This document shows, piece by piece, positions 1,036 to 22,361 of a DNA stretch of 45,865 bases (the first letter of the stretch is position 1; the number at the start of each line of letters is the position of its first letter). Both the position numbers and the translations under genes were made by a program. The stretch is from positions 1 through 45,865 of IMG/VR virus record IMGVR_UViG_3300021365_000031, one strand, 5' to 3'. The notes under the pieces were generated by a model that ran no database searches, was not told the origin of the DNA, and worked only from the letters and a program-made list of their open reading frames with translations. This stretch comes from a virus.

Positions 1036-1136
1036 CCGCAGTATTAGGCTAGCCGCTGATTGCGTAGCGCACACCCGGAAATAATTAACGTAGTGTGTAA
1101 CTGCGGCCACACAATACTATTATAAATGTATTTATC
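1036..1136 (-). promoter_or_regulatory. Late promoter and structured leader
   Basis: GATAAATAC (minus strand, 1128-1136) matches the T4-type late -10 box and overlaps the stop codon of the upstream glycosyltransferase. The leader of about 120 nt contains a long-range perfect inverted repeat CCGCAGT/ACTGCGG (1036-1042 with 1100-1106), an alternative pairing AGTATT/AATACT (1040-1045 with 1113-1118), and a small inner TGCG-CTA-CGCA hairpin. Confidence 0.6.
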
Positions 1137-1887
1137 GCCAGTGTTGGGATATTATAGTATCTTCAACGTCTAGTGGCTTGGGATTGCCATGAAATATCAG
1201 TATGCTTGCATCACTGGGTAGCACCGAAGGGCCTCCAGGGTCTAAATGCTTTCTATAGCGAAAATCGTACCCACCTTCAGCAACTTCCCAGCGGTAGCTC
1301 AATATTTGATCTGTGCTATAATAAGCAACATCATCTTTAATCTTACTATAGATATAATCTTGATCACCATGCCAGGGACAACGTGGATTGTTTACTATTT
1401 GTTTTAAATCAAATTCGCGGTAAACATATTGATATTTCATAGGATCAAACCACATCACACTGCTATTGATACACCAACGTGAGCTCTTCATAAGGTATTT
1501 GAAATCTCGTGCAGCCCAAAATCTAACATCAGGTTGTTGCCACAACCAGTCTATGTTGCTTACAATTACAGTATCAAGATCAAAGTAAAGCATCTTGGTA
1601 TATCCTGTATCCCAATGCTGAGGATTAAACAGTTGTACTTTATACCACCATGAACGTTTTGGACCGCGAACACCGTCCCACTCTTCAAGGTCATGACGGA
1701 TATAAGGATTTGGCACATGACGAGTGCTTTCTGTAAACACATGCATTCGAACAGTGGGTGTAAGGTTACGACACAAACTGCGATACAGTCTGTCAACGTA
1801 TGTCCAATCATAGAGTGTGTCGTGAATCAAACACGCACAGTCAATAACGTCATCTACTCCAGTGAGTCGCTTAATCTTTTTAGCCAT
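1132..1887 (-). CDS. Glycosyltransferase, GT8-like fold with DxD
   Basis: About 251 aa from the ATG at 1887, which has AGGG about 5 nt upstream; an in-frame start at 1944 would overlap the preceding gene more deeply. The motif MLYFDLDTVIV gives an Asp-x-Asp (about residues 103-105) typical of metal- and nucleotide-sugar-binding in GT-A glycosyltransferases. Later residues (WCINSSVMWFDP, HGDQDYIY) fit the acceptor side of GT8-like enzymes. It overlaps the gene at 1854-2720 by 34 nt. Probable role: transfer of a sugar to a surface or virion glycan; donor and acceptor are unknown. Confidence 0.8.
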   Translation of the reverse strand: MAKKIKRLTGVDDVIDCACLIHDTLYDWTYVDRLYRSLCRNLTPTVRMHVFTESTRHVPNPYIRHDLEEWDGVRGPKRSWWYKVQLFNPQHWDTGYTKMLYFDLDTVIVSNIDWLWQQPDVRFWAARDFKYLMKSSRWCINSSVMWFDPMKYQYVYREFDLKQIVNNPRCPWHGDQDYIYSKIKDDVAYYSTDQILSYRWEVAEGGYDFRYRKHLDPGGPSVLPSDASILIFHGNPKPLDVEDTIISQHWR

Positions 1888-2720
1888 AGGCCCTGTTCTA
1901 TTTCTTCCACAGTGTATTCTGTGTGGCATATTTCCACAAACCACTGTTCTCTATCTTGAAGTGGAGGATTTTCAATGTATTCTAATCGTGTGCCAACAGG
2001 ATATGCAAGGCTAGTCCTGTCCACTAACACACTTGCACCGTCAATGGCTGCTTTGATGCCCGGTCCGCTGCAATGATTAATCACAGCATGATATTCATAG
2101 TCAATGTCATATTGATCATATGTGTCATTGATCCTCATTGGTTCTTCCAAACTGCAATTGTCTAGATTTGCCATACCAAATTTATGTCTAGGAATGAACA
2201 CTGGACTGCGTGGATGTGGTCGAATAACAATGTGTCGGTCTGTGTACTGTCTGATTTTGTTCACAGTGTGTTTGACCCATTCAACTGGTTCTGGCATATT
2301 ATGCCACTGTAGACTTTTTCTGTGTTGCATTGCTAACAGTATGTCTTCGCGTTTGCTGTGCATATCATGCAATTGCAAATCAAGATGTGCAGGCCTATCC
2401 CAGTCTAAATTTTGTTGATGTCCGTAGTATCCGTCACTGTTGATATTGTTAACAGATATTTTCCAAGTGATTTCGCGTTTGAGTGTGCCAACATCAATCA
2501 CAATAACTGGTTTGCCCTGACTGCGATAGTGTTCGTACACTGCTTTGTTGGCTTGCATACGACCATTCCATAGCACACTCCAAATAACTACAGCATCACA
2601 TTCCATACTGTTTTCCACTGGAGTAACACCAACAACTCTAAGGCTGTGTAGAAATGCTTGTAAAACTGCAGGGCTGTTCTTAGCACACTGCTCTGGATAA
2701 TATGCACAGTTAATGATCAC
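1854..2720 (-). CDS. Capsule-type glycosyltransferase-like protein
   Basis: A 288-aa protein starting at GTG. Residues near the middle read IVIRPHPRSPVF, followed by a C-terminal HCSGPGIKAAIDGASVLVD segment. This resembles the nucleotide-sugar-binding half of KpsC/KpsS-type polysaccharide transferases, where a conserved HP motif is followed by a Gly/Ser-rich loop. It is related in layout to the gene at 4534-5490 and to the C-terminal half of the 564-aa protein at 5487-7181. It diverges from the gene at 2737 with almost no spacer. Function as a GT-B enzyme is inferred; substrate unknown. Confidence 0.7.
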   Translation of the reverse strand: MIINCAYYPEQCAKNSPAVLQAFLHSLRVVGVTPVENSMECDAVVIWSVLWNGRMQANKAVYEHYRSQGKPVIVIDVGTLKREITWKISVNNINSDGYYGHQQNLDWDRPAHLDLQLHDMHSKREDILLAMQHRKSLQWHNMPEPVEWVKHTVNKIRQYTDRHIVIRPHPRSPVFIPRHKFGMANLDNCSLEEPMRINDTYDQYDIDYEYHAVINHCSGPGIKAAIDGASVLVDRTSLAYPVGTRLEYIENPPLQDREQWFVEICHTEYTVEEIEQGLWLKRLSDSLE

Positions 2721-2723
2721 GGC

Positions 2724-2731
2724 TATAAATA
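2724..2731 (+). promoter_or_regulatory. Late promoter predicting a leaderless mRNA
   Basis: TATAAATA lies exactly 5 nt before the ATG at 2737 and no Shine-Dalgarno sequence is present. In T4 late promoters the start is about 6 nt after this box, which would be the A of the ATG. Confidence 0.65.
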
Positions 2732-2736
2732 CTCGT

Positions 2737-3567
2737 ATGAAACGTTATACTGTAGTTACCACATTCCATCAGGAAGGCTTGAAAATGTATGGCCAGCGGA
2801 TGATCAACACATTTGAACAGCATTGGCCAGAAGAAGTTGACTTGATTGTCTATACTGAAAATTGTACACCAGTTGTTACCAAACCCAATGTTCGTTGCAT
2901 TGACTTAATGAAAGCCAGTAAGCAGTGCAGGAGATTTGTAAAGCGCCACAGGGACAATCCAGAAGCGCATGGTCACAGAGGCCCACACAACGAACGCAGT
3001 TGGCGTCCCAAAAAAGAATTTAAATGGGATGCTGTGAGATTTTGTTACAAGGTTTTTGCAGTGCATCATGCAGTAAGTACCATCGATAGCGATTGGATTA
3101 TTTGGCTTGATGCTGACAGTCATACACACAGCCCAGTTAACATGAAGTTCTTAGACTCAGTCTCGCCAGATCAGTACATTGCAACACATCTTGGGCGCGG
3201 AGAAAGATATCATTCAGAATGTGGCTGGGTAGGCTACAACATGAAACATCCGGAAGGTATCAATTTTGTAAACGACTTTGCTGGTATGTACATCAATGAT
3301 ACCATGTTTGAATACGGAGAGTGGCACGACAGTTTCTTATTTGACGTTCAACGCAGACTCTATCGAGATAACAAAAATGTAGAATTTTACAATCTTAACC
3401 CCCATCCTGACACCAAAGGTCTTGCAGGACATCCATTTATCAACAGTGAACTAGGTCTATTCATTGACCATATGAAAGGCAACAGAAAAAATCGTGGACA
3501 TTCAAATGCTAGAGAAGTTCAACTTCATACTGATCATCCTTATTGGCGTAACATTGGCAGGATGTAG
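2737..3567 (+). CDS. Glycosyltransferase-like protein with DAD motif
   Basis: About 276 aa from the ATG at 2737; the in-frame ATG at 2713 overlaps the divergent gene and lies upstream of the promoter, so I prefer 2737. WIIWLDADSHTH (Asp125 and Asp127) is the DxD-type metal site of a GT-A glycosyltransferase. The segments GRGERYHSECGWVGYN and GEWHDSFLF are similar to acceptor-binding regions in phage glycosyltransferases. It is the first gene of a three-gene plus-strand unit with the lipoprotein and the FkbM methyltransferase. Substrate unknown. Confidence 0.8.
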   Translation: MKRYTVVTTFHQEGLKMYGQRMINTFEQHWPEEVDLIVYTENCTPVVTKPNVRCIDLMKASKQCRRFVKRHRDNPEAHGHRGPHNERSWRPKKEFKWDAVRFCYKVFAVHHAVSTIDSDWIIWLDADSHTHSPVNMKFLDSVSPDQYIATHLGRGERYHSECGWVGYNMKHPEGINFVNDFAGMYINDTMFEYGEWHDSFLFDVQRRLYRDNKNVEFYNLNPHPDTKGLAGHPFINSELGLFIDHMKGNRKNRGHSNAREVQLHTDHPYWRNIGRM

Positions 3568-3895
3568 TACACATGCCAGTAACTGGAAAGAGTGGAATAC
3601 AGAAAAACGCACTGTGTTTGTTGCTAGCAATGTTGCCCTTGCAGCTGACTGGAGTACTACAATAAACATAACTAAACGCTATGACGAAAACTACCATGAG
3701 ACAAACCCTATACTTGGGCGTCATCCCAGTAGAGGCGATGTCAACAAGTACTTTGTTGCCAGGACAATGCTAAACTACCAAATGGCACGATACCTACCAG
3801 ATCCTTGGGATAAATGGAGTTTGTCCTTTACCACTGTTGTACACAGCAAAGCAGCCAGTGACAATATAGGCCTTGGATTGGAGTTTGATTTTTGA
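3506..3895 (+). CDS. Predicted lipoprotein with EtNPILG-type motif
   Basis: A 129-aa protein beginning MLEKFNF and continuing with a hydrophobic stretch to the lipobox LAGC (Cys20), so export and lipid anchoring at Cys20 are predicted. The mature part contains DWSTT and HETNPILGRHPSR, a pattern seen in small membrane-associated bacterial proteins of unknown function, and ends in a beta-strand-like GLGLEFDF. It overlaps the upstream glycosyltransferase by about 60 nt and touches the FkbM gene (TGATG). A role in altering the host envelope or blocking superinfection is speculation based on location. Confidence 0.75.
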   Translation: MLEKFNFILIILIGVTLAGCSTHASNWKEWNTEKRTVFVASNVALAADWSTTINITKRYDENYHETNPILGRHPSRGDVNKYFVARTMLNYQMARYLPDPWDKWSLSFTTVVHSKAASDNIGLGLEFDF

Positions 3896-4545
3896 TGTAT
3901 GAAAAACATGGTTGGTGGTTTCCTGATCAGGATACACACTTTGCAGCAATGCTGACAAAAAATATTGAAAAAGGTGGCGGTCCTGTGTATCAGGAGCCAG
4001 TGCGTACAAAAAGTTTGCAATTTGTAAAACAAAAAGGTGTTGCATTAGATATTGGTGCAAACATTGGATTGTGGAGCAAGGATCTTGCAGATCAATTTGA
4101 ACAGGTCATTGCGTTTGAACCTGTAGCCGACTTTCGCAACTGCTTGATTAAAAATGTTAATGCTAGTAATATTGACATACGTCCGTATGCACTAGGATCC
4201 ACCGACACAACCATTGATATGATTGTTACCGAAGGTAATACTGGACACAGTCACGTTGACAACAGCACCATTGGCACAGGCAACATTGAAATGTGGTGTT
4301 TAGACAGTTTGGAATTTGAGTGTATTGACTACATCAAGATTGACTGTGAAGGCTATGAATTGTCAATACTAGAAGGTGCCCAGGAAACTATCAAGCATCA
4401 CAAACCTGTAATTGTAGTTGAACAAAAATTGCACAAAGACACAGGTATTACCAAAGCTACGCAATATGGTTGCGTTGATTTGTTAAAAAGTTGGGGTGCC
4501 AGTGAACTTGCGCAAGTGCGCGATGATTGTATACTAGGTTGGTAG
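3895..4545 (+). CDS. FkbM-family SAM-dependent methyltransferase
   Basis: A 216-aa protein starting at the ATG within TGATG. VALDIGANIGLWS (about 49-61) is the SAM-binding motif I, VIAFEPVADF is motif II, and YIKIDCEGYEL followed by ILEGAQ is the signature of the FkbM family, which O-methylates sugars and polyketide-linked sugars. Length is normal for the family. As the last gene of the plus-strand glycan unit it probably methylates a sugar hydroxyl made by the neighbouring transferases. It runs convergently into the gene at 4534 with a 12-nt overlap. Confidence 0.88.
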   Translation: MYEKHGWWFPDQDTHFAAMLTKNIEKGGGPVYQEPVRTKSLQFVKQKGVALDIGANIGLWSKDLADQFEQVIAFEPVADFRNCLIKNVNASNIDIRPYALGSTDTTIDMIVTEGNTGHSHVDNSTIGTGNIEMWCLDSLEFECIDYIKIDCEGYELSILEGAQETIKHHKPVIVVEQKLHKDTGITKATQYGCVDLLKSWGASELAQVRDDCILGW

Positions 4546-5490
4546 ATACTGTGCAAAGTGGCGATATATATCACCATTTTGACTTTGCTCTACTGTCCAA
4601 TGCGCTTGTGCTAAATCATTGAACCATTGCGTTCTGTCAGGCATAATAGGATCCAGTATATTTTTTATATTGCGATTTGCTACATCCCAGGATACAGCAC
4701 TTTCCTCACTTACAAAAGTAGGTATGCCTTCAAGTACACTTAACACACTGCTTGAACTGTTATAGTATATTGCACATCTGGCAGTACTCACACTTTCATG
4801 CAGGCTGGTGTTAATGCTGTCAACCAAGGTAACATTTGGCATACTGTTTACCCAACTCCAGTCATGTTTTGTCTTGGTTCTGTCGCGATTGAGGTCGCCG
4901 GGGTGCGCTCTAATTTTTATTGGCTCGTCAGTTAATGCTCTAATCTTTTTAATTGCTTTCTTTAACCACCGCTCTTGGTCAAATCCTTTTGCATTCCATC
5001 CGTTGTCACGCTGTAAACATATCAATAGTTCATCGCCTTGATTACGCCATGGTTTTTCTTGCAAGTTTAAACTGGACTTTATCATGTTCCAGTGTGTAGT
5101 ATCACTATCGTGATTGGCATACTCGCCAGTATTCCAGAACACACTGTCTAAACTGTAGCGTAGCCACATGTTTTCATGTTGATGATGAAACTTAAAGCAA
5201 CTGCCGTCAATGCTCATTACTCTGCCACCAATTGCACGTTGATGATTGATTATAGCTTCACGGAAGTGAATGTGAGGGCCGCTATAATTCATGCCTACCC
5301 ATCCTAGTATAACTGCTAGTTTTGTATTACGAACCTGTCTGTTGCGAATATCATCATCTATTAACACACGAGCACCGGCTTTGATAGCACCTTGGCCAAA
5401 TGCTCGCATGATCTGGATTTTGATGTTGTGATTTTGTATCTTGGGCAGAGTAGCCAAGTACACAACAACATCGTAATCCCAATGAGTCAC
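4534..5490 (-). CDS. Capsule-type glycosyltransferase-like protein
   Basis: A 318-aa protein starting at a GTG that overlaps the upstream stop (GTGA). The centre reads IKIRAHPGDLNRD and the C-terminal part has YYNSSSSVLSVLEGIPTFV, the order expected for the donor-binding domain of KpsC/KpsS-like GT-B transferases (HP motif, then Ser-rich loop before a Glu-Gly). It resembles the C-terminal half of the adjacent 564-aa protein and the gene at 1854-2720, suggesting duplication. Last gene of a nine-gene minus-strand run; substrate unknown. Confidence 0.7.
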   Translation of the reverse strand: MTHWDYDVVVYLATLPKIQNHNIKIQIMRAFGQGAIKAGARVLIDDDIRNRQVRNTKLAVILGWVGMNYSGPHIHFREAIINHQRAIGGRVMSIDGSCFKFHHQHENMWLRYSLDSVFWNTGEYANHDSDTTHWNMIKSSLNLQEKPWRNQGDELLICLQRDNGWNAKGFDQERWLKKAIKKIRALTDEPIKIRAHPGDLNRDRTKTKHDWSWVNSMPNVTLVDSINTSLHESVSTARCAIYYNSSSSVLSVLEGIPTFVSEESAVSWDVANRNIKNILDPIMPDRTQWFNDLAQAHWTVEQSQNGDIYRHFAQYLPT

Positions 5491-7181
5491 TGTGCATACA
5501 CCTTCTGAAGAATTTTCCAGGCAGTGCCATCTTGCATTTCGTTAGTGGTAAATTGAGCGTATGCTAAATTCATACACAGCACTCTCACTTCATCAGGTGA
5601 TGGCATATATGGTTTTTCAATCTTGACAAGATCCTTATTTGCCAATGGTGTTGCTGCATTAGGACCCATTGTAAACACAGGCTTGCCAAATATCAAACTT
5701 TCAACTGCTGCAATACTGTTGTAGGTTACCATGCAATGCACATCGTTAGCAAGAGCCATTTCCATAGTGTCAACATTGACTCTGGTGTGACGATTTTGTT
5801 TTTCGCGCACCACAATTGGTCTGTCTGTGTGTTTTTTAATTTCTTCCTGTGTGTTGTGCAACCATTCTTGCAAGTTAACTCCCCAGTAAGACAGTGCCTT
5901 TTGGCTAGGAGGACATAGTAAAATATTTCTTCCGGTCCGATGTTTGCGTATTACTGTTTCAGTTTTATGAAATCTATCGTCAGATATCCTTTGATTAAGA
6001 GGGAGGCTAAATTGCAATGCATTTTTGGTAATTCTATGATATAGTTTGTGCTTGCCGTTACCAAAATAACCTGTGTCAATATAGTAAAAATCTCTCTTTG
6101 ATTCTAGACAACGCCACATCACTTTCTTTTTGGCAATGCCCCTTACCACTGCTGGAACATTCAGAGGAACTTGGTCAAGCTCTTTGCTGTTAGCAAATAC
6201 TCCTCTACTACCAAGTAGAAAACTTTCTAATATCACATCCAATTTTAACTCCTCCCGTGTTTTTTCTGGAAATTCAGGGCTAGGTGGTTCGCCTGCATCA
6301 ATGATGCCAAGTACACCCGATTCGTTGTATGATTTAGATAAACGCTCAACTGCGCCTGGTACGTCAAGGTCGTAGAAAATATTATGCGGATCATAGTATG
6401 CACGGATCAATTCTTGGATGCCAGCTTTTAGATCTTCTGGCAGTGTTAAGTCGCGCACATTATGTGTAGGATTGTGCTTGCTTTCTAGATATCCTTGGAG
6501 ATACATGTTCCAGGTTGCTGCATACCCACAATCTTTACAATTGTCAAACCAAGGGCCGCCTTCAGTGTAGTGCAACAAGTTCGGTTCACCGTCTCTGCCT
6601 TCTACATACCAGTCAACAAGCCAATTCCACTGTGGACCAAGCAAGCCAATGTCTTTGTCCTTGAGCCAACTGAATCGATGTAGATAAGCACCAGTAACTT
6701 CAGGATCGTTTACCAAGTCAAGTGTCACTTTCTTATTGGCTTTGTGGGCACAATTCCACACAACCATTGAGCTCCAATTCTTTCTGGGATATGCCAGTTG
6801 CTGTTGCCCATCCATCTTTATGCCAGGTGGCGGTGTGTAGTCATGTTGTACACAGGTTACAGCTTTTGCAGGATCAACTTCATCCAGCAGCTCAGCAATG
6901 TCATTTAGAAATATCATGTCACTGTCCATAAAGATAGCAGTGCCTTCAAAGTTGTTTAGCTCTGGTACTAAAAAGCGTGTGAACGTAAACTCTGTGCTAG
7001 CCAGTGCATCAATATCGCGACTGTAAAGCCCACGCATACGCAAGTCATCTTGCTTTAACATAACTATATCAACAGGAATACTTGCATGTTTAAGTATACT
7101 GTAACGGCACACATCTGCGGCAATAGGCTCACGACTATCCCAACCAATATAAACTGTTACTCGATCTTGTTTTAATCCCAT
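5487..7181 (-). CDS. Two-domain glycosyltransferase fusion
   Basis: A 564-aa protein that looks like two enzymes joined. Residues 1-235 form a GT8-like domain with YIGWDSREP near the start and FMDSDMIFLND (Asp86 and Asp88) as the metal site. About 235-320 is a linker. About 320-560 resembles a capsule-type transferase, with TDRPIVVREKQNRH in place of the HP motif and a VTYNSIAAVESLIFGKPVF loop. The HP motif seen in the two relatives is altered here, so donor binding may differ. It overlaps the upstream gene by 10 nt. A bifunctional transferase is inferred. Confidence 0.75.
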   Translation of the reverse strand: MGLKQDRVTVYIGWDSREPIAADVCRYSILKHASIPVDIVMLKQDDLRMRGLYSRDIDALASTEFTFTRFLVPELNNFEGTAIFMDSDMIFLNDIAELLDEVDPAKAVTCVQHDYTPPPGIKMDGQQQLAYPRKNWSSMVVWNCAHKANKKVTLDLVNDPEVTGAYLHRFSWLKDKDIGLLGPQWNWLVDWYVEGRDGEPNLLHYTEGGPWFDNCKDCGYAATWNMYLQGYLESKHNPTHNVRDLTLPEDLKAGIQELIRAYYDPHNIFYDLDVPGAVERLSKSYNESGVLGIIDAGEPPSPEFPEKTREELKLDVILESFLLGSRGVFANSKELDQVPLNVPAVVRGIAKKKVMWRCLESKRDFYYIDTGYFGNGKHKLYHRITKNALQFSLPLNQRISDDRFHKTETVIRKHRTGRNILLCPPSQKALSYWGVNLQEWLHNTQEEIKKHTDRPIVVREKQNRHTRVNVDTMEMALANDVHCMVTYNSIAAVESLIFGKPVFTMGPNAATPLANKDLVKIEKPYMPSPDEVRVLCMNLAYAQFTTNEMQDGTAWKILQKVYAQ

Positions 7182-8032
7182 CTTTCAATGTCACTTTCTG
7201 ATAGTAATTTACTAGGACCTTTCCACACTTCAACAATGTGTGCAGGCTCGTCGCTGTCATTGACACCCTGGTGCCAAATTCCCTTGGGAATGTCTACAGG
7301 ATTGGGCGGTGTTAGTGTTTGTCTTTTTGCGCCGTCATATGGTTCTGTAGCGTTTCTGCTTGTAAGCACATGTGCAACACCACTTACTAAATTCCAAGTT
7401 TCACTACGGTATTTGTGCCGTTGCATGCTCAACTTGCTGTGCGGAGCAATAACCAATTCCTTAACTTGAAAGCCATCACCATGGTACAGTTCTCTATAGT
7501 GTCCCCATTCGCGTTCTACTTTGGGTGCTTCCCATTCTTTGAGAATCCAACTGCTACTGTTCTTTTTGTTTTCGCCTCCAACACCAAACACAAACTTCAG
7601 TCTTGGATCTTGAATATCCATTTCAGGAATATTGTTATCGGTTCTATCTCCACCGTTGGCAAATACCACTTTGGCTGTTGGATAGTTGTCCAATGTTGAT
7701 TGTATAAACTTTTTTGCACTACCGTCAGCATCAAATTCGTCATCAAAGCCCACAACACCGCCTACCATGCCTAAATGACTGATAATATTAGCACGTTCAC
7801 TGATAGGCATAAAGCTACGACCTTTTTTGCGTTTAAGCCAACTATCTGAATTGACACCTACTAGCAGTATGTTGCCGTAACTTGCAGCGGCGTTGAAGTA
7901 TTCAATGTGTCCACTGTGTAGTGGATCAAATCCTCCAGTAACCAATACAATTGTGTAATCAATGTCTTTAAACTTAACTCCGGGAATAAAGTCCCCAGGT
8001 TCAGTAGCAGGAGTTCTTCTGTTATCAACCAT
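7172..8032 (-). CDS. HldE/TagD-type nucleotidyltransferase fused to cupin
   Basis: A 286-aa fusion. Residues 28-160 form a cytidylyltransferase-fold domain: GGFDPLHSGH (33-42) carries the HxGH signature and PISERANII fits the C-terminal helix. In bacteria this family activates heptose-1-phosphate, glycerol-3-phosphate or similar phosphates. Residues 175-275 form a cupin like the mannose-6-phosphate isomerase domain at the C terminus of ManC: SMQRHKYRSETWNLVSG holds a likely metal ligand His206 and GIWHQG a second one. The fusion suggests isomerisation and NDP activation of one sugar phosphate. Substrate unknown. Confidence 0.85.
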   Translation of the reverse strand: MVDNRRTPATEPGDFIPGVKFKDIDYTIVLVTGGFDPLHSGHIEYFNAAASYGNILLVGVNSDSWLKRKKGRSFMPISERANIISHLGMVGGVVGFDDEFDADGSAKKFIQSTLDNYPTAKVVFANGGDRTDNNIPEMDIQDPRLKFVFGVGGENKKNSSSWILKEWEAPKVEREWGHYRELYHGDGFQVKELVIAPHSKLSMQRHKYRSETWNLVSGVAHVLTSRNATEPYDGAKRQTLTPPNPVDIPKGIWHQGVNDSDEPAHIVEVWKGPSKLLSESDIERWD

Positions 8033-8198
8033 CTAGATTATCCTTTAATTCACGCACACGATGGCCTAACCAACCAATTGCTGTGCTAATATGTCCTGTA
8101 TCGTGTGGAAGTAATTGACTTTTTGCATAGGCAATTTCATCTTCTAGTGCAAAAATGCGTTCCAGCTTTGCTTGTTTTGTTGCAGTCATTTCAGTCAC
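8025..8198 (-). CDS. Small coiled-coil-like protein, 57 aa
   Basis: The best start is the GTG at 8198: it overlaps the upstream stop as GTGA and has GGAGG 9 nt before it; a longer reading frame from 8243 would overlap the upstream gene by 49 nt. The product is helical (AKLERIFALEDEIAYAKSQL) with a second helix near the C terminus. No domain recognised. It is embedded in the glycan operon with overlaps on both sides, so it is likely expressed; its role is unknown. Confidence 0.65.
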   Translation of the reverse strand: MTEMTATKQAKLERIFALEDEIAYAKSQLLPHDTGHISTAIGWLGHRVRELKDNLDG

Positions 8199-8545
8199 TG
8201 TGGATACCCTCCGTTGCGTTTCACGTTCCATGCAATAGCACACTGTAGTCCGTGTTCTTTGTTATCATTCACCACAATACGCTCGCCGTGTGCCAAATCA
8301 AATAGTGCATAGTCGTATCGTAAATTGTTATCGTCTAGTATCTTTAGTGTTGTTTCTTTGAACTCTAATGCTCTGGCTGTGGTAATAACAATAACGTCAT
8401 CTTCGGGTATACTTGCCCACAGTTCCTGCACTCCAGGCAACAACTCATCATTGTGGTAAGGAGTAGCATTTACCTTGACCACTGTGCCGTCCATGTCAAA
8501 AAACCAAGTATGGTTCAGGTTGTCGCTGAGTTCAAATGGTATCAT
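8195..8545 (-). CDS. HAD-family phosphatase
   Basis: A 116-aa protein with the HAD motif I WFFDMDGTVV (nucleophile Asp17, acid/base Asp19), motif II IVITTAR (Thr55/Thr56 region) and a late VNDNKEHG that supplies an Asp. It is short, like capless HAD enzymes of capsule biosynthesis. It overlaps the upstream nucleotidyltransferase-kinase gene by ATGA, implying translational coupling. Probable role: removing a phosphate from a sugar or polyol intermediate of the cluster; the exact substrate cannot be read from sequence. Confidence 0.85.
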   Translation of the reverse strand: MIPFELSDNLNHTWFFDMDGTVVKVNATPYHNDELLPGVQELWASIPEDDVIVITTARALEFKETTLKILDDNNLRYDYALFDLAHGERIVVNDNKEHGLQCAIAWNVKRNGGYPQ

Positions 8546-10065
8546 TTTATTCTTTTAATTCCTCTGTTTAACCAATACAGTCCGTAATAGTAACTGCCAA
8601 TTACACTATCGATATCGTCTTTGGCGTAGCCACTGAGTGCTAACCATATTAATCCGTGTAGCAATTCAATGTTGCCCATTTGCTCTGGTAACAATTCTTC
8701 AAATACCTGTTGTGCTACGTTGGCTGTCGATGGCGGCGCCATGATAATTTCACAGGTATCGTTGTCAATGTGCAGTTTAAACTTGCGTCTGTTAAAGCTA
8801 TCGTAGCCTCCGACTGCACTGTAGTATACTTTAGCAAAGTCATAAACTGGGTCACCATACACACCAGGCTTATCAAAATAGCCTCTTGGATCAATAAACC
8901 AGGCTTTGAGATTGTGATCAATTATGGTATTTGAAAATGTAGGATCACCGTGTATGGGCGTGAACCATTCAGGCTGCAATGCTTCTGCGATATCGTCCCA
9001 CACATAGGTGTATTGGCTGTGAAAGTAATTGATACACTTTACTCCATTGACTGTGAAACTTTGTTTTTCAAATCCTGGAATAATTCTACTGACACTGTTT
9101 ACTCTGCTTTGTGTTTTGTTGATATACACATTTTGCACTTGTTCTTCAATGCTGGGTTTTTTGTCTCTAGTATGTAAGTCTTGCAGTGTATAAATGATGT
9201 CAGCTAGTATACTGCGCTGTTCACGTTCCGATAGATTGTCAATATCCCACACATGCTTGCCATGTACGCGACTCATTGTAAGTTGCTCGGCATCTTTGTT
9301 TATTACAGGTATACGATTGAATCCAAGATCTCCAACAGTTTTATACCATTGCTTTTCTTGCGTTATTAAATGTGCATAGTCCAGATCAATTGCTTCTTTG
9401 ACCACAACTGACTCGCGTATGTCAACTCTGTTAAAAAATCTACAAAAACCCAGTTTGCTATTGTTGTCTTCAATTGTGCCAAAGTCGCCTAGTTCTTCTA
9501 GTGCATTTGCCGGAACTGTTCTAAAGTCTGTAACATTTTGACTAAACCATTTAACAAACTCGCCACTGTGCGGAGGTGTTGGAAATTGACTACGTTCAGC
9601 AAAATAAAATATACCCGGCACGCCGCCAGTTTCGCTTGGCACTTCTTCAAGTCCATTCTGTTGCACGCTCCACCGACAAGTAAATGCGTCAGTTATGTAT
9701 ACAATAGGTTTGTTGGTGTGTTCAGGAAATTCAGCAAGATCGTTAATAATCAAATCGCTCCAGGTAAGCAACACTGGTTCGTTTGCAGGTACCATAGCCA
9801 GTGCTGTGTCTATACCCGAGCAAGTGCCTTTTTGATCTGTATGTATCAATTCATACTTTGCTTCAGGAGGATCAACTTGTAAATAGTTTTGCAACTGCTC
9901 ATACAAGTAATCGCCAATGATCATAAAACGTGCATCTGGAAACTTGTCAAACAAATGATACAGCAAAGGTTTTCCATGCACACTGACCAAGCACTTAGGC
10001 TTGTTCCATGTGTGATGGCGTAGCCTACTGCCACGACCTCCTGCTTGTACTATAACGTTTAGCAT
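8542..10065 (-). CDS. Sugar/choline-phosphate nucleotidyltransferase fused to APH-type kinase
   Basis: A 507-aa bifunctional protein. Residues 1-230 form a nucleotidyltransferase: VQAGGRGSRLRHHTWNKPK (7-24) is the NTP-binding signature and TWSDLI supplies the catalytic Asp. Residues 250-507 form an aminoglycoside/choline-kinase-like domain: IHGDPTFSNTI (Asp374, Asn379) is the catalytic loop and WFIDPRG the metal-binding Asp. The pairing resembles choline kinase LicA plus cytidylyltransferase LicC, or the enzymes that make CDP-activated capsule substituents. It probably phosphorylates and then NDP-activates a small alcohol or sugar. Linked to the HAD gene by ATGA. Confidence 0.85.
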   Translation of the reverse strand: MLNVIVQAGGRGSRLRHHTWNKPKCLVSVHGKPLLYHLFDKFPDARFMIIGDYLYEQLQNYLQVDPPEAKYELIHTDQKGTCSGIDTALAMVPANEPVLLTWSDLIINDLAEFPEHTNKPIVYITDAFTCRWSVQQNGLEEVPSETGGVPGIFYFAERSQFPTPPHSGEFVKWFSQNVTDFRTVPANALEELGDFGTIEDNNSKLGFCRFFNRVDIRESVVVKEAIDLDYAHLITQEKQWYKTVGDLGFNRIPVINKDAEQLTMSRVHGKHVWDIDNLSEREQRSILADIIYTLQDLHTRDKKPSIEEQVQNVYINKTQSRVNSVSRIIPGFEKQSFTVNGVKCINYFHSQYTYVWDDIAEALQPEWFTPIHGDPTFSNTIIDHNLKAWFIDPRGYFDKPGVYGDPVYDFAKVYYSAVGGYDSFNRRKFKLHIDNDTCEIIMAPPSTANVAQQVFEELLPEQMGNIELLHGLIWLALSGYAKDDIDSVIGSYYYGLYWLNRGIKRIK

Positions 10066-10071
10066 ACTGTA

Positions 10072-10263
10072 TTAGTCATTGTTAGAATCTGCTATTAGAC
10101 TTTTGCGGCCTTCGATGCCTATTTGTGCATCCAAAATTGTTTTAACTTTCATAAGCATTGCACATGCCATCATCAGAACATCTTCTCGATCATCGCACAT
10201 CATAATTTGTTGATCAATTGGTCGGCAAAGTTCCGCCATTCTTTCTTTTACGGTTTTACTCAT
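10072..10263 (-). CDS. Small conserved-type phage protein, 63 aa
   Basis: Start chosen at the ATG giving MSKTVKERM, with GGGAG just upstream; the in-frame ATG 12 nt earlier overlaps the previous gene. The protein has MAELCRPIDQQIMMCDDRED and a Met-rich helix. I believe similar short proteins occur in marine T4-like phages, but no function is known to me. It sits between two glycan genes and may only share the transcript. Confidence 0.7.
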   Translation of the reverse strand: MSKTVKERMAELCRPIDQQIMMCDDREDVLMMACAMLMKVKTILDAQIGIEGRKSLIADSNND

Positions 10264-10275
10264 GTTTTCTCCCAT

Positions 10276-10992
10276 TTAGATACTGACAATTCTTTCTGGT
10301 AGTGGAATATCCCAAAGTTTTCCTTTGTTCCAGTAATATACTCCATTGGGCATTTCTGGATAGTTGTTGTACACATGCTGAAAGCACATGCCCGAAAACA
10401 CAAAGCTCTCAAGTTTCCAAGCGCCGCGCTCTCGCATGCAATGGAAAGCCGCGTCAATGTTGCGAGGAAACATAAAATCAGCCATTTCTGCACCCTTAAC
10501 CTGTGTAAGTTCTTGCCAGGGTAAATCACTGCGAAACAAGGCTACTCCAAAAGTCCAGCCTGTGTTGTGTGTGCTGTAAAAGTCTAAACTGAATCCGTCT
10601 AGCTTGTTTTCTGCAAGGTGACGTTCTGCACTGCGAAACTTTTCATCTAGTGCTGCCCATCTGTGTGTTAAGAACTGTGTGTCATCGGCATCAATCATCC
10701 AAAATGCATCAGTGCGCCCGCTTGCAATCTCAAAACCTGTTATGTTAGCACATGCCATATTGCGTTTTGCACCTTTAAGTTCCCGCAGGCTGGGCATTAT
10801 AGAGTCTCTAATGCTGGCGATTAATTTTGCATCTGGATAATCCAACATGCATGTTTTAAGCATGTCAGTTTCATCTCTGTCACATAATATATAAGTTTCG
10901 TGATTCTTAAACAGTTCAAGCCAGAATCGCAAACAATGAATACCGTGTGCATCCATCCTGTCAATTTTTAAAAATGCACTAACACTGCCCAT
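10276..10992 (-). CDS. Glycosyltransferase-like protein with DADD motif
   Basis: A 238-aa protein. AFWMIDADDTQFLTH (Asp101-Asp104) resembles the DxD metal site of GT-A glycosyltransferases, preceded by a segment (YILCDRDETDML) typical of the nucleotide-binding half. Unlike most GT2 enzymes it has no obvious N-terminal VSVIIP-type strand, so the fold assignment is tentative. Its start codon lies immediately after the stop of the methyltransferase gene (TAAATG), indicating coupling. Probable role in the glycan pathway; donor and acceptor unknown. Confidence 0.65.
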   Translation of the reverse strand: MGSVSAFLKIDRMDAHGIHCLRFWLELFKNHETYILCDRDETDMLKTCMLDYPDAKLIASIRDSIMPSLRELKGAKRNMACANITGFEIASGRTDAFWMIDADDTQFLTHRWAALDEKFRSAERHLAENKLDGFSLDFYSTHNTGWTFGVALFRSDLPWQELTQVKGAEMADFMFPRNIDAAFHCMRERGAWKLESFVFSGMCFQHVYNNYPEMPNGVYYWNKGKLWDIPLPERIVSI

Positions 10993-11751
10993 TTAATGTT
11001 GCTCCATAATCATGATATTTTTGTCCAACCACGGAAGTATTAGATCACGTTGTCTCAGCTTTCCGTATTTGGTAATACCATCCACTGCACATTGCGGTAA
11101 CAATTCAGTTTCTTCTATAAGATTATACAAGTTAACTTGTTGAGGATTCATTGGTTCGATGTTGCTCTTGTACACAATTGCATACAGCCACGGATCTCCA
11201 GGCGTTTTCTTAAAAAATCCATCACGACAATCCCAGCCACTAACAGCCAGCATATAGATTAACTGTGGCATTGTGTAATGATATTTGTGACCCAAGGCTA
11301 GGTTGTATTCTTGAATGTGATATTCTGTGTTAACAGTTTGCGGCACTGCCAGTACTAACATAGCATCCTTGTTTGCAATATGCCACCAATTCGACAATGC
11401 TTGGTATGGATTTAACAAATACTGCAATTGATCGTAGCAATATACTATATCAAATGATTTTTTTACACGGTTTAGAGATTCAATGTTGTGATTTTGGTAT
11501 GATATACTATTGTGACTACTATTAAGTCTTTTAAATGTATTAACACCAACGCATTTAATGCCTAACGGAGTTTTTGCTTCATCTCTTGTGGTAGCACTTG
11601 CCCACCACAGCATATCAGTTGCTTCAACATCGCAGCCAAGATCAATAACATGCCCAACACTGTCCATGAAATCGTCATACTCATACATATAACTTAGTAC
11701 GTTTTGAAAACTGTGTTCGTGTTTTTCTTGTGGACTACTGAATGAGCTCAA
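10993..11751 (-). CDS. Class I SAM-dependent methyltransferase
   Basis: A 252-aa protein starting at TTG (AAGGA 8 nt upstream; no closer ATG). HVIDLGCDVEATDML (about 34-48) is an altered motif I lacking the usual GxGxG. The segments FDIVYCYDQLQYLLNP and AMLVLAVP match the post-motif strands of the type-11 methyltransferase group. It is the first gene of the minus-strand glycan operon. The degenerate glycine motif means activity is not certain. Substrate unknown, presumably a glycan or its precursor. Confidence 0.7.
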   Translation of the reverse strand: MSSFSSPQEKHEHSFQNVLSYMYEYDDFMDSVGHVIDLGCDVEATDMLWWASATTRDEAKTPLGIKCVGVNTFKRLNSSHNSISYQNHNIESLNRVKKSFDIVYCYDQLQYLLNPYQALSNWWHIANKDAMLVLAVPQTVNTEYHIQEYNLALGHKYHYTMPQLIYMLAVSGWDCRDGFFKKTPGDPWLYAIVYKSNIEPMNPQQVNLYNLIEETELLPQCAVDGITKYGKLRQRDLILPWLDKNIMIMEQH

Positions 11752-11811: not shown

Positions 11812-12264
11812 TTATACCTGGACGTCTTCCATGCCTGCTGTGCGCAACCGCACAATGTGACCCATTTGCCACTGCTTGGTGTCCAGACCTTTCATGATGC
11901 CAAGATACTTGTTGCGCAATAATGCAACTTCATTGATCAGCGTTTCAAAGTCGATAACTTCATCTTCGCCGTCAACATACTTTTCAGCATCGCGACTGTT
12001 TAACGCTCTAGCATATCCTTCCAAATACTTTTGAAAATGCTTGCGGCGTATCTTGCGCAACTGTATGTTCAAGAAGTTAAGTACTGCCTCAATCTCTTGC
12101 AGTTGATTAAAACGATGTTCAGTGAGTCCAGGTAACGCTTGAATGTTTTTTTCAATAAGTCCGCCAACACGACACTCGCGCTTTGCTTCTTCAAGTTCAG
12201 CTTCAAAGTGTGTAATAAAGCTAGGAATGTTGCCAAGATTACCTGTTACCTTGCTATACCACAT
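11812..12264 (-). CDS. Conserved T4-like marine phage protein
   Basis: A 150-aa protein starting at ATG (MWYSKVTGNL); a TTG 9 nt upstream overlaps the previous stop. It is largely helical, with ALNSRDAEKYVDGEDEV and NEVALLRNKYLGIMKGLD, patterns I recall from conserved proteins encoded near uvsX in marine T4-like phages. It lies in the same run as uvsX and gp32, so a recombination or replication accessory role (for example a UvsY-like mediator position) is possible, but no UvsY signature is clear. Function unknown. Confidence 0.75.
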   Translation of the reverse strand: MWYSKVTGNLGNIPSFITHFEAELEEAKRECRVGGLIEKNIQALPGLTEHRFNQLQEIEAVLNFLNIQLRKIRRKHFQKYLEGYARALNSRDAEKYVDGEDEVIDFETLINEVALLRNKYLGIMKGLDTKQWQMGHIVRLRTAGMEDVQV

Positions 12265-12269
12265 GTGTA

Positions 12270-12548
12270 TCAATACTCGTCATAATCAAACTCGCCATCG
12301 TCATTAAACTGATCAAGCAGTTCATCCTCTTCTTCCTCTTCAAGATCGTCTTCATCATGCTCTCCAACATAGGCACCAACTGCCATTTTTATAGCACCGT
12401 CCCATTTGAATGCTTCTCGTATTTCGTCAGCACTGTTTTGTTCCATTAGGGTTGCCACTACTGTATCGGCAGCTTCTCTAATGTCTCCATTTTCCAGTAT
12501 AAAAGTGCGGCAGTCTTTCCACACCATTGCAGCTATTTCTAATGACAC
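12270..12548 (-). CDS. Small acidic protein of the recombination block
   Basis: A 92-aa protein starting at GTG with AGGAGC upstream. The N-terminal 60 residues look helical; the C terminus is extremely acidic (about 65-92, mostly Asp and Glu). Acidic tails of this kind occur in proteins that contact ssDNA-binding proteins or mimic DNA, which fits the neighbouring uvsX and gp32, but this is inference only. It is followed closely by the 150-aa gene. No domain recognised. Confidence 0.7.
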   Translation of the reverse strand: MSLEIAAMVWKDCRTFILENGDIREAADTVVATLMEQNSADEIREAFKWDGAIKMAVGAYVGEHDEDDLEEEEEDELLDQFNDDGEFDYDEY

Positions 12549-12560
12549 GTTTTGTTGCTC

Positions 12561-13787
12561 CTATTCTACAAACAGTTCTGGGAAAATATTTTCCAGTTTT
12601 TTAATATTCTTGTCAGTTTCGTACCATTCAATGTACTCAAAGAAATCGTCGCGCAAGTCCTGATCAAACTTGCTATCATTGACTCCTACCAATAGGTCTT
12701 CATATGTGGTTTCGGTATTGTCAATGATGTTTCGATTAATTTCTATATCCTTTAACAAATCTTTCTTTATATGATCAGGCAGTGTTTTCATGCCTAGATA
12801 TACAGGATTGTTTACTATGTTAGTTCTCAACTTAATATTGTTATTTCTGCACCAGGTTGCAAGATCTCTAAATCCTAGCACTGTTGCTGTTTGGAACGTG
12901 TACAGTATTGACATATCTATTCGAGGGTTGCTTACAGCTTTGAGAACATGCTGTTCGACCTCTTGCCAATTACTTCCGTATCTAGCCCATTCTTGGACTT
13001 CTCCTATTCCTTCAAGACTAACACTGCATTGAACGTACTTGAAATCTCCAAGCGAATCGATAATCTCAGAAACATCTTTACTGGCATTGGTAACAAACAG
13101 CAAACTCAGTTTACTTTTAGTACTAGCGGGCAACTGGCGTAACTTATCTATCAAGAACTTATCTAAAAACGGCTCTCCGCCAAGAAACTTCAAAAACTTG
13201 ATATGCTTGTTGTTTTCCAAAATGTCATCCAAGTACTTGATATACTGTTTATTCTTGAATGTAAATGACTTGGCCCTTGTTAAGTATTCAGGATCCTCTT
13301 CTAGCACAGACTGTACAATAGGATGATCAAGATTAGCCATCCAGTTTGCATAAATCAACGAACTATCTTCAGGATGGCACATAACACAGGCATAGTTACA
13401 GGTATTGCCAACTTTGATATCTGCACTCAAAACCATATCACTGTTAAAGTCATCTTTGTTGTTAAAGTACACATCCATCCAATTTGCAGCGTTAATATCT
13501 TTTTGCAATGATATCAACTCATTGAGATCTTGTCTCAAACTGCGTATTCCGTTTTCTTCCTTGAGCCAACAGATTCGACAATGTTCTGATCTTACTCCGT
13601 TGGCCAAATCTTTTTTTAAATCTCGTATTGGCTGAGTATTTAGGTATTCCAATGAACTCATGTTTTGGCTAGGCATGTGTTCTGTTATTTCGGTAGATAT
13701 TGCACAACAAACTTCTTTACTCATGTCTTGCCCATTTTTAATCTGAAACCATGGAGCAACACAGAATGTGTTTTTGTTGTTATGCAT
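12561..13787 (-). CDS. Radical SAM protein with twitch-type C-terminal half
   Basis: A 408-aa protein whose ATG lies inside the last codons of uvsX (8-nt overlap); longer in-frame starts run deeper into uvsX. VGNTCNYACVMCHP gives the CxxxCxxC [4Fe-4S] motif (Cys130, 134, 137); LKFLGGEPFLD is the GGEP SAM-binding motif and CSVSLEGIG a later strand. Additional cysteines near the N terminus (CVAPW, VCCAI, CRICW) could bind a second cluster. Such proteins occur in marine phages. Reaction unknown; translational coupling to UvsX hints at co-expression. Confidence 0.85.
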   Translation of the reverse strand: MHNNKNTFCVAPWFQIKNGQDMSKEVCCAISTEITEHMPSQNMSSLEYLNTQPIRDLKKDLANGVRSEHCRICWLKEENGIRSLRQDLNELISLQKDINAANWMDVYFNNKDDFNSDMVLSADIKVGNTCNYACVMCHPEDSSLIYANWMANLDHPIVQSVLEEDPEYLTRAKSFTFKNKQYIKYLDDILENNKHIKFLKFLGGEPFLDKFLIDKLRQLPASTKSKLSLLFVTNASKDVSEIIDSLGDFKYVQCSVSLEGIGEVQEWARYGSNWQEVEQHVLKAVSNPRIDMSILYTFQTATVLGFRDLATWCRNNNIKLRTNIVNNPVYLGMKTLPDHIKKDLLKDIEINRNIIDNTETTYEDLLVGVNDSKFDQDLRDDFFEYIEWYETDKNIKKLENIFPELFVE

Positions 13788-14889
13788 TCTCGTGTAATAC
13801 CTCACCAGTTTCATCATCAATGATATCTTCATGCACATCAACAACTTCGTCTATACTTACCGTTTCGTCACCAATTTTAGCAAACTCCAGCATCAATTCG
13901 TCAAGGCAGCCATTTTCATTGCGTTCCCATGCTTTGCGGAACTGGATAATTTCGCTGCCATCAGATTTAATAAAGCTCAGTCTGTTGCCAGACTTTTTAA
14001 GCAAGTCTACACTTTCGGCAAGATCAACAAGCCCACTATATGGGTTCATGCCAGTTTCATAAGGAATCTTAACTTGTACACTTTCAAACGGTTTAGCATA
14101 GCGTGTTTTCATAACTTTACATGCTGCACGAATACCTTTTACTTGCGAAATCTTGTTGCCATCTTCATCCTCTTTGAGCTTGAGCTTGCGCATTGCAACC
14201 ACGATTGAACTTGCATAGATAAAGCCTTGTCCACCCGAGATCTTATCATCTGGATCAAACATATCTTGTGATGCATATGTGTGGTTGGTACACACCATAC
14301 CAACGTTGTAACTGCCAAACATGTTTACAGTATTACGCACCAATGCTGTTAGTGCTTTAGGCTTTCTGCCCAAATCACCTTTCATGTCACCTGATTCAAA
14401 CTGATTAACATCTGTTGGAGTAAGCATCATTCCTAAACTATCAATTACAAACAACACCTTAGGACGTTCGCCGTCGGCCATTGCTTTGTAGTCTTTCATG
14501 AATGTTGAAATTGTCTTTGCAACATCATCAATCATGCTCATTGCCAGTTTAAGCAATTTGCTATCGTCTGTGTCCACACCTAGTGCTTTTAGCCAGGCTT
14601 CATCAAGTGCGTTCTCAGTGTCAATAAGCACAACAAAGATGCCTTGTTCTTGTGCATGTTTAACAATGTTACCTGCGGCAAAATAACTTTTGCCTGCGCC
14701 AGATTCACCAGCAAACACTGTAACTTTACCCAGTGGACAACCTTTGTGGAAGTCTCCCGAAATAAGATAGTTTAGTGCATAGTTGCCTGTGCTAATCCAG
14801 TCTGTTGGATCGTTAAAGCCAATTGACAATCCGTCAATGCTTTTTGTGATGTCCTTGCGGAACTTGCTTACGTCAAATGGTTTTGCCAC
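13780..14889 (-). CDS. uvsX: UvsX RecA-like recombinase
   Basis: A 369-aa protein starting at GTG with AAGGAG 6 nt upstream. Walker A GESGAGKS (61-68) and Walker B KVLFVIDSLG (Asp150) match the RecA/UvsX ATPase core, and the DNA-binding loop region reads KISGGQGFIYASSIVV. The C terminus is acidic. UvsX forms filaments on ssDNA, assisted by gp32, for recombination-dependent replication and repair in T4. The gene has its own consensus sigma70 promoter inside the 3' end of the preceding gene, so it is expressed early or middle. Length is close to T4 UvsX (about 390 aa). Confidence 0.97.
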   Translation of the reverse strand: MAKPFDVSKFRKDITKSIDGLSIGFNDPTDWISTGNYALNYLISGDFHKGCPLGKVTVFAGESGAGKSYFAAGNIVKHAQEQGIFVVLIDTENALDEAWLKALGVDTDDSKLLKLAMSMIDDVAKTISTFMKDYKAMADGERPKVLFVIDSLGMMLTPTDVNQFESGDMKGDLGRKPKALTALVRNTVNMFGSYNVGMVCTNHTYASQDMFDPDDKISGGQGFIYASSIVVAMRKLKLKEDEDGNKISQVKGIRAACKVMKTRYAKPFESVQVKIPYETGMNPYSGLVDLAESVDLLKKSGNRLSFIKSDGSEIIQFRKAWERNENGCLDELMLEFAKIGDETVSIDEVVDVHEDIIDDETGEVLHENA

Positions 14890-21606: not shown

Positions 21607-21741
21607 TTATTGTGGTTTTGGGCCGTGGTTCTTAATTGTGTCTTCGGGGAATTGTTTAAGTTCTGCAGGAGTTGGCGCTACAAGTGGTGTTGTTTTTGTT
21701 GCGGGTTTGCCCAATCCTCCAAAGTTTATGCTTGCAATCAT
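21607..21741 (-). CDS. 44-aa protein just upstream of gp17
   Basis: An open frame starting MIASINFGGLGKPATKTT and ending at TAA, rich in Pro, Lys and Thr. Its ATG overlaps the stop of the sulfotransferase gene (ATGA), as with most genes in this operon, and it fills the otherwise empty gap before gp17. Likely translated; possibly an unstructured peptide that binds another packaging component. No family recognised. Confidence 0.6.
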   Translation of the reverse strand: MIASINFGGLGKPATKTTPLVAPTPAELKQFPEDTIKNHGPKPQ

Positions 21742-22361
21742 TGGTTAATATATCCTTGTTTAAAGTTCCACACAACTTGCTCGTAATTTTCAAAAATATC
21801 TTTCGCTTGAATTGGATTTTTCTTACTGCCAGTTGTGTGCGGTTGAAAGTTGGTTATACCAAACTGTTCACCAAGCAGATCTTGTGTTTCCTGTGAAAAT
21901 AAATCTTCGTAATACAAGTCAATATATTCAAGTTTGTTTTGGTCTAGCCAAGCTCTCCATTCATCATTTTGACGTTCTATCTTCATCATATTGGTCACTA
22001 AGTGATTGGAGTTTGCTTTGATCTTGGGTATTTTGTTAACGGGTAATTTATCAGGATGCCATACTGATACTATTTCATCTTCTATGTTTAAGTCCATAAG
22101 ATAGTCTACTACAGCAAAACTAAATGCATGTGCTAGCTTATCACGTCTTGATAAAAAAATAACTTTATCTATTTTTGTTTTGGGCAACCAATTACGACTA
22201 TGAGTAAGCAAAGCCGATTTACTGCTATTTGCAAATTTATCTTCGTCCCAGATACTGCTACCGTCCTGGTGTTCTTGCACTGCATAATATCCACTTGAGT
22301 TAAACAGCTCTAGTAGATAATTATTAGCGCATCTTCCCAAAGACGCTATCATTGCAATCAT
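21738..22361 (-). CDS. Sulfotransferase-like protein (Stf0 type)
   Basis: A 207-aa protein overlapping the SNase gene by ATGA. The N terminus (MIASLGRCANNYLLELF) resembles the PAPS-binding loop of sulfotransferases, followed by VIFLSRRDKLAHAFSFAV, which closely fits the Arg-Arg-x-Asp-x-x-x-Ala pattern of Stf0-like enzymes, and YIDLYYEDLF later. It would transfer sulfate from PAPS to a carbohydrate or other hydroxyl. Its place between packaging genes is unexpected; it may belong functionally with the glycan cluster. Confidence 0.7.
   Translation of the reverse strand: MIAMIASLGRCANNYLLELFNSSGYYAVQEHQDGSSIWDEDKFANSSKSALLTHSRNWLPKTKIDKVIFLSRRDKLAHAFSFAVVDYLMDLNIEDEIVSVWHPDKLPVNKIPKIKANSNHLVTNMMKIERQNDEWRAWLDQNKLEYIDLYYEDLFSQETQDLLGEQFGITNFQPHTTGSKKNPIQAKDIFENYEQVVWNFKQGYINQ

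Follow-up and report, generated by a model that had tools for sequence, protein, structure and literature searches.

Introduction

The virus record IMGVR_UViG_3300021365_000031 raises the question of why a phage would carry a 10.6-kb block of sugar-related genes, which sugar these genes activate, and where the product is placed. The stretch analyzed here, referred to as the window, covers positions 1 to 45,865 of that record (~45.9 kb) and comes from a T4-like phage, as judged by UvsX and UvsY, the tail sheath, the tail tube, and a T4-type terminase. The block lies at 1132-11751, downstream of uvsX-uvsY, and contains 14 open reading frames (ORFs). By its sequence it is a phage glycan-assembly island, with several clustered glycosyltransferases (GTs) in a T4-like genome, as in the envelope-glycan clusters of T4-like phages. 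Phage sugar-gene clusters are themselves already known; less expected is a pair of genes encoding a nucleotidyltransferase-kinase fusion (NTkin) and a HAD phosphatase. We put at about even the chances that the island uses host D-arabinose 5-phosphate (D-Ara5P) to form a nucleoside diphosphate-linked D-arabinose (NDP-D-arabinose) for a methyl-capped chain, with the host envelope as the favored acceptor.

The window is probably a piece of a jumbo phage, because its closest long relatives, contigs L055 (316,012 bp), L020 (299,910 bp), and L051 (328,292 bp), measure 300-328 kb; the closest large terminases are those of PA5oct-like and other jumbo phages. An initial annotation, made from the sequence alone, had proposed a glycan biosynthesis cluster here, and all of its claimed ORFs are present. 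Its estimate of at least five GT-like proteins holds and becomes six proteins with seven GT domains. The remaining ORFs encode two methyltransferase-type proteins, one of the FkbM family and one with a degraded S-adenosylmethionine (SAM) motif; the HAD phosphatase; two bifunctional nucleotide-activation enzymes (NTkin and NT-cupin); and a lipoprotein regarded as accessory. Two further ORFs are small. All 14 are listed below.

1132-1887 (start corrected), minus strand: GT_1132, predicted glycosyltransferase (phrog_1962, E 6e-22; conserved D122xD124)
1854-2720, minus strand: putative KpsC-like GT-B protein, paralogue of 4534-5490 (alignment); found in most relatives
2713-3567, plus strand: GT_2713, GT-A-like, D133xD135 invariant across 29 aligned sequences; homologue Mosig_00189
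3494-3895, plus strand: predicted outer-membrane lipoprotein, accessory (LAGC lipobox with Ser at +2, by inspection)
3892-4545, plus strand: FkbM-family methyltransferase (TIGR01444, PF05050)
4534-5490, minus strand: putative KpsC-like GT-B protein, paralogous to the C-terminal part of P7 (alignment, five invariant residues)
5487-7181, minus strand: P7, fusion of a GT8-like GT-A domain and a putative KpsC-like GT-B domain (motifs, Foldseek)
7172-8032, minus strand: NT-cupin, HldE/cytidylyltransferase-like domain with a ManC-type cupin (PF01467, PF01050)
8025-8243, minus strand: small ORF between HAD and NT-cupin, occurring in some relatives
8195-8545, minus strand: HAD phosphatase, directly after NTkin (D17, D19, D94, and K96 invariant)
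8542-10065, minus strand: NTkin, N-terminal nucleotidyltransferase and C-terminal APH-fold kinase (NTP_transf_3, APH, motifs)
10072-10275, minus strand: small conserved ORF (81-99% identity in the closest relatives)
10276-10992, minus strand: GT_10276, predicted GT-A glycosyltransferase, invariant DADDT (alignment, model, co-occurrence with NTkin)
10993-11751, minus strand: methyltransferase-like protein with degraded SAM motif I (PF08241, motif comparison, dN/dS)

Conservation and Selection

When each window protein was searched with tblastn, dozens of viral contigs, three of which are 300-328 kb long, proved to carry the same block on the downstream side of uvsX-uvsY. In 46 viral loci that have six or more of the core genes, gene order is largely or wholly kept; some of these loci are near-identical contigs, and apparent breaks in order are partly cross-hits between the KpsC-like paralogues. 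Comparison with L005, L006, and L055 gives the main island genes a ratio of nonsynonymous to synonymous substitution rates (dN/dS) of about 0.06-0.26, which indicates purifying selection, and several island genes lie near the values for uvsX/uvsY (0.04-0.10). Catalytic motifs are invariant across the aligned island relatives. The two checks suggested by the initial annotation, conserved neighborhood and intact catalytic residues, thus came out in its favor, as the homologues are not scattered. Chance or artefact as the cause of the cluster is rejected by synteny, selection, and gene-order conservation.

The ORF bordering the island at 527-1000 (157 amino acids) evolves fast, with a dN/dS of 0.33-0.55 and 57% and 30% identity to relatives, and possibly encodes a virion decoration protein.

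The NTkin/HAD Pair

NTkin scores 35.9 bits with NTP_transf_3 and 29.7 bits with APH, and NT-cupin scores 41.5 bits with PF01467 (CTP_transf_like) and 59.8 bits with PF01050; as all four domains exceed their Pfam cut-offs, the two bifunctional activation proteins of the initial annotation are upheld. The motifs GRGSRL..PK, HGDPxFSN, and IDPRG are conserved in NTkin. The proposed HAD phosphatase is likewise sustained by its four invariant catalytic residues; its comparison with the PDB gave chance matches only. The family phrog_1238 is labeled phosphoheptose isomerase yet matches this HAD protein, and RB69p051, which bears the same name, is reported to have a phosphatase domain (PMC8056088); the label looks wrong.

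Relatives of NTkin occur in viral contigs, Pseudomonadota contigs, and RB69-type phages. NTkin and HAD stand together in 53 loci, 45 of them with a gap of at most 72 bp, and the 53 include all 15 Pseudomonadota loci (in L123 the gap is 782 bp). The neighbor of NTkin in L113, L116, and L126 is a KpsF/GutQ/KdsD-type isomerase above the TIGR00393 cut-off, and the isomerase near NTkin in Synechococcus phage S-SRM01 is shorter and falls below it. All four partner isomerases score 112-309 bits as KdsD/GutQ versus about 25 bits or less as GmhA. Since the genomes of L113, L116, and L126 (3/3 checked) hold another KdsD-type gene elsewhere, the isomerase beside NTkin is a second copy; two NTkin genomes with no adjoining isomerase have a single KdsD-type gene each. 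KdsD makes D-Ara5P and feeds the synthesis of 3-deoxy-D-manno-octulosonate (Kdo). A search of five related viral contigs, of which three span 300-328 kb, gave no SIS or SIS_2 isomerase, with S-SRM01 matching as a positive control for SIS; the window phage itself is a fragment. The substrate is therefore probably supplied by the host. The initial annotation's "nearly self-contained" route accordingly stands for activation, transfer, and methylation and probably does not extend to the sugar phosphate.

In the NTkin tree, marine phage sequences interleave with those of Pseudomonadota and lie far from the RB69 clade; only this broad split is used because many inner forks are weak. Among 399 genomes of the order of Polynucleobacter, NTkin occurs in the query genome alone, and we thus regard it as a rare accessory gene.

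Proposed Route to an Activated Sugar

The directly observed basis of the route is gene content and order, motifs, selection, the predicted folds of two GTs, and the co-occurrence of GT_10276 with NTkin. The route itself is proposed because of the adjacency of NTkin and HAD, the KdsD-type partners, the RB69-type gene set, and the precedent of AmgK and MurU, in which an APH-fold anomeric kinase is paired with a uridylyltransferase, as the two domains of NTkin would be. The APH domain would add a phosphate at C1 of a sugar 5-phosphate, most probably D-Ara5P from the host, to give arabinose 1,5-bisphosphate; HAD would strip the 5-phosphate to leave arabinose 1-phosphate; and the nucleotidyltransferase domain would convert the latter to NDP-D-arabinose. 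GT_10276 would then transfer this sugar, the GT8-like, KpsC-like, and other GT-A enzymes would add further sugars, including the product of NT-cupin activation, and the FkbM protein would O-methylate the chain. D-arabinose is the best guess for the sugar; the pairing of donors with GTs, the acceptor, and the order of reactions are likewise inferred, and the phosphatase may instead act before the kinase.

The same logic suggests a general isomerase/NTkin/HAD route from D-ribulose 5-phosphate through D-Ara5P, arabinose 1,5-bisphosphate, and arabinose 1-phosphate to NDP-D-arabinose, which would serve glycans in bacteria and marine phages and DNA arabinosylation in RB69-type phages, with the isomerase-free marine jumbo phages drawing D-Ara5P from the host Kdo pathway. 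We judge this generalization plausible, at slightly under an even chance.

Several observations weigh against the arabinose route. KdsD also supplies Kdo synthesis, gene neighborhood is an indirect guide, and the assignment of D-arabinose as the substrate is drawn from gene context. No isomerase was detected in the jumbo-phage contigs, and the RB69-type NTkin is distant (27% identity, on a far tree branch), so its substrate may differ. Loci L034 and L045 have NTkin and no HAD homologue despite available flank, L029 has NTkin and no GT_10276, and nothing in the window indicates an acceptor. Kdo synthesis also came into question, D-Ara5P being the product of KdsD and KdsC belonging to the small HAD proteins; against it, the condensing enzyme KdsA was not seen among the cluster genes, and NTkin includes a kinase.

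NTkin and HAD could alternatively yield another activated sugar, such as a heptose or a different pentose, in parallel to GmhA-HddA-GmhB-HddC, where the chemistry runs in the same order. HddC and enzymes of the 6-deoxy-heptose pathway are among the weak matches of the NTkin N-terminal domain, but the partner isomerases are of the KdsD/GutQ rather than the GmhA type, and the kinase of NTkin is APH-fold by profile, whereas HddA is a GHMP kinase. In phage Thanatos, which has the RB69 ORF53_52c homologue TH1_060, cytosine bears a pentose, possibly xylose (PMC12838424). On balance a different sugar seems unlikely, although it retains appreciable weight, and D-arabinose is kept as the working assignment.

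A Possible GT_10276 Cassette

NTkin is present in 48 of the 56 loci that a dedicated scan with GT_10276 yielded. Of the eight others, five are cut close to the GT gene: L143, L144, and L182 end just after or inside it, and L175 and L179 start nearby. The remaining three, L185-L187, match weakly. In the 12 related contigs that lack NTkin/HAD, GT_10276 is missing too. This distribution fits donor synthesis and its putative transferase moving together as a cassette. In L055 (7396-9813), NTkin, HAD, and GT_10276 are replaced by cupin-like, methyltransferase-like, SGNH-like (by inspection), and FkbM-like genes, while the remaining island is 67-95% identical to that of the window. Phages that vary a surface glycan by exchanging cassettes would be expected to show such a swap of sugar-donor genes along with one GT. 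L020 carries an insertion between HAD and NT-cupin (11947-14820) that, by reading of the sequence, resembles a sugar aminotransferase, an NDP-sugar epimerase/dehydratase, and a uridine diphosphate (UDP)-sugar dehydrogenase.

The model of GT_10276 has a pLDDT of 93, and its fold matches are manganese- and UDP- or guanosine diphosphate (GDP)-dependent GT-A enzymes with low TM-scores of about 0.4-0.5, which suffice to suggest the GT-A fold class and not the donor. Phage DNA glycosyltransferases are among these matches, which raises the reading that the island hypermodifies phage DNA, as is thought for the NTkin relatives of RB69-type phages; NTkin and HAD homologues do occur in the RB69 arabinosyl-deoxycytidine module, both near uvsX. 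A thymidylate-synthase-family enzyme was, however, found in 0/3 of the 300-328 kb relatives, whose contigs may be incomplete, versus 3/3 controls (RB69, Acj9, and 4S). A search for TAGT gave no match, nor did one for TET/JBP, the latter with no control match. NTkin groups with bacterial homologues instead of the RB69 clade, and FkbM together with several GTs suits a glycan better. With neither an isomerase nor a thymidylate-synthase-family enzyme in the 300-kb relatives, RB69-style DNA modification is very improbable as the role of this island, even though the GT_10276 fold is shared with DNA glycosyltransferases.

The Other Glycosyltransferases

In profile searches, no family match was obtained for the proteins at 1854-2720, 2713-3567, 4534-5490, and 10276-10992; they are taken as GTs because of conserved DxD motifs, homology to the P7 C-terminal domain, and folds. 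The start of GT_1132 is better placed at the ATG at 1887 than at 1944, because its relatives begin at MAKKIKRL.

In all 14 sequences compared, the GT8-like part of P7 keeps the GT8 motifs D86xD88 and H204-YTxGGPW unchanged; its Pfam GT8 score of 19.3 bits is below the curated cut-off of 24.3. The P7 model (pLDDT 80, pTM 0.54) matched the GT8 enzymes 3tzt and LgtC, the bifunctional GT WbbM, and LARGE1 in Foldseek, with KpsC lower; the matches to 8fux and 6mgb, of the KpsC fold, have E values of about 1e-5 with no aligned range reported. The structural check suggested by the initial annotation, applied to P7 and GT_10276, thus returned GT folds. Each P7 domain has a gene of its own, next to that of the other, in Mosig (a Pelagibacter phage), CcrBL9 (a Caulobacter phage), and several contigs, which marks P7 as two fused GTs. 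The P7 C-terminal domain is homologous to the proteins at 4534-5490 and 1854-2720, and Q160, R194, H196, P197, and S245 are invariant in their alignment. All three are putative KpsC-like GT-B domains; the profile match of the KpsC-like proteins to WbbB (5fa0) is weak (E 0.2), and PDB sequence searches with two alignments, one of them the KpsC-like set, gave nothing firm.

NT-Cupin, Methyltransferases, and Small Proteins

The HxGH motif of NT-cupin and its cupin residues H206/E211/H254 are kept in at least 95% of 69 sequences. The full fusion was absent from 398 sampled Pseudomonadota genomes in a search with no positive control, a weak hint that it may be phage-specific. Of the two methyltransferases first proposed, the FkbM protein is well above its cut-offs (TIGR01444, 90.1 versus 37.7 bits; PF05050, 59 versus 22.7). 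The second scores 21.7 bits with PF08241, barely above the cut-off of 21.2; it has a dN/dS of 0.09-0.12, and its activity is doubtful because SAM motif I is no longer recognizable in the clade of the window. The lipoprotein is present only in the closest relatives. The ORF at 10072-10275 is retained also where NTkin/HAD are swapped, and that at 8025-8243 has too few substitutions for a selection test.

The Acceptor

The lipoprotein holds the only strongly hydrophobic segment of the island. The assembly enzymes being soluble, the acceptor would be encountered in the cytoplasm. It could be the host lipopolysaccharide (LPS) core or O-chain, with the change of surface directed against competing phages. 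None of the cluster genes was recognized as encoding an undecaprenyl-phosphate initiating transferase, a flippase, or a polymerase. Soluble enzymes and the lack of a recognized lipid-carrier pathway would equally suit a glycan placed in the cytoplasm on virion proteins of the tail or fibers, where it would alter adsorption or provide shielding. The fast-evolving, conserved ORF at 527-1000 borders the island, and in CcrBL9 the P7-type GT pair and FkbM lie between a tail protein gene and a lysozyme gene, an arrangement that also counts against a host-envelope role. LPS core GTs, however, are soluble too, no glycosylated virion protein is known in this lineage, the outer-membrane lipoprotein suits the host envelope, and O-chain modification has been argued for pelagimyophages (PMC7029224). 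Both LPS-core modification and virion-protein glycosylation fit; given the lipoprotein and the pelagimyophage reasoning, we lean weakly to the host envelope and hold virion decoration to be a less probable, though serious, alternative.

Other Features of the Window

A Twitch-domain radical SAM protein (12561-13844; NF033640, 233 versus a cut-off of 170 bits) overlaps the end of uvsX; it is 85% identical in L055, and its other matches near uvsX/uvsY in relatives are distant. A weak Stf0 sulfotransferase match, barely above the cut-off, lies at 21738-22361; the GT cluster of Mosig contains a putative sulfotransferase. The tail sheath (30270-33560) is very long at 1096 amino acids, with extra sequence ahead of its conserved C-terminal part.

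Comparison with Known Systems

The initial annotation held that marine phages carry single GTs. This is contradicted by pelagimyophages, with several GTs and rfaE-type genes (PMC7029224), by cyanophage S-SCSM1, with 13 envelope-glycan genes (PMC9602691), and by the GT/FkbM run of Mosig. The LPS/O-chain clusters of pelagimyophages and cyanophages resemble the island: they too belong to T4-like marine phages and hold several GTs, with GT8 prominent among them, next to FkbM and genes of the rfaE type; the island adds sugar activation, and its order is far more constant within its own lineage. The cultured Pelagibacter phage Mosig EXVC030M has six homologues in a row (FkbM, GT_2713, the P7 N- and C-terminal domains, 4534-5490, and GT_1132), but unlike in the window, no NTkin/HAD or NT-cupin match was found in the region examined.

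In S-SRM01, NTkin (37% identical) and HAD (46%) adjoin within a GT-rich cluster annotated with SIS, NDP-sugar synthase, "3 phosphatase", and fucosyltransferases; unlike the window, S-SRM01 encodes a KdsD-type isomerase itself, and its cluster includes a GDP-fucose branch. The Pseudomonadota SIS-NTkin-HAD loci (L112-L126) have NTkin 41-56% identical with HAD adjoining, and some lie near a GT41 gene or flagellar-looking genes (L116, L123; by reading sequences, not profiles). They differ from the window in being patchy accessory genes (2/397 further Pseudomonadota genomes) with different GT partners.

Direct precedent for phage virion glycosylation or bacterial D-arabinose activation was not found in the open-access literature. 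The RB69-type module (ORF055c, ORF53_52c, ORF051c; PMC6024577, PMC8056088, PMC13390438) has a full-length NTkin homologue of ~27% identity with an adjoining HAD gene near uvsX; unlike that module, the jumbo relatives have no detected isomerase or deoxycytidine monophosphate hydroxy(methyl)ase-like enzyme, and they sit on a distant tree branch. RB69, Acj9, and Serratia phage 4S hold the isomerase, NTkin, and a HAD-like gene in one stretch. The HAD proteins of Acj9, 4S, and PM2 are only about 21% identical to that of the window; the catalytic DxD, TAR, and D/K motifs are common to them. Thomas et al. linked the RB69-type isomerase and NTkin to UDP-arabinose (PMC6024577), and RB69p051 is listed as presumably involved (PMC8056088). 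For arabinose-modified T4-like phages, a 2026 paper describes the full pathway as not characterized and the arabinose precursor as unclear (PMC13390438). The comparative pattern names a candidate enzyme set, substrate, and reaction order for this arabinose supply, which makes the question testable in vitro with two proteins; the same set is also found in bacteria and in a large syntenic lineage of marine phages.

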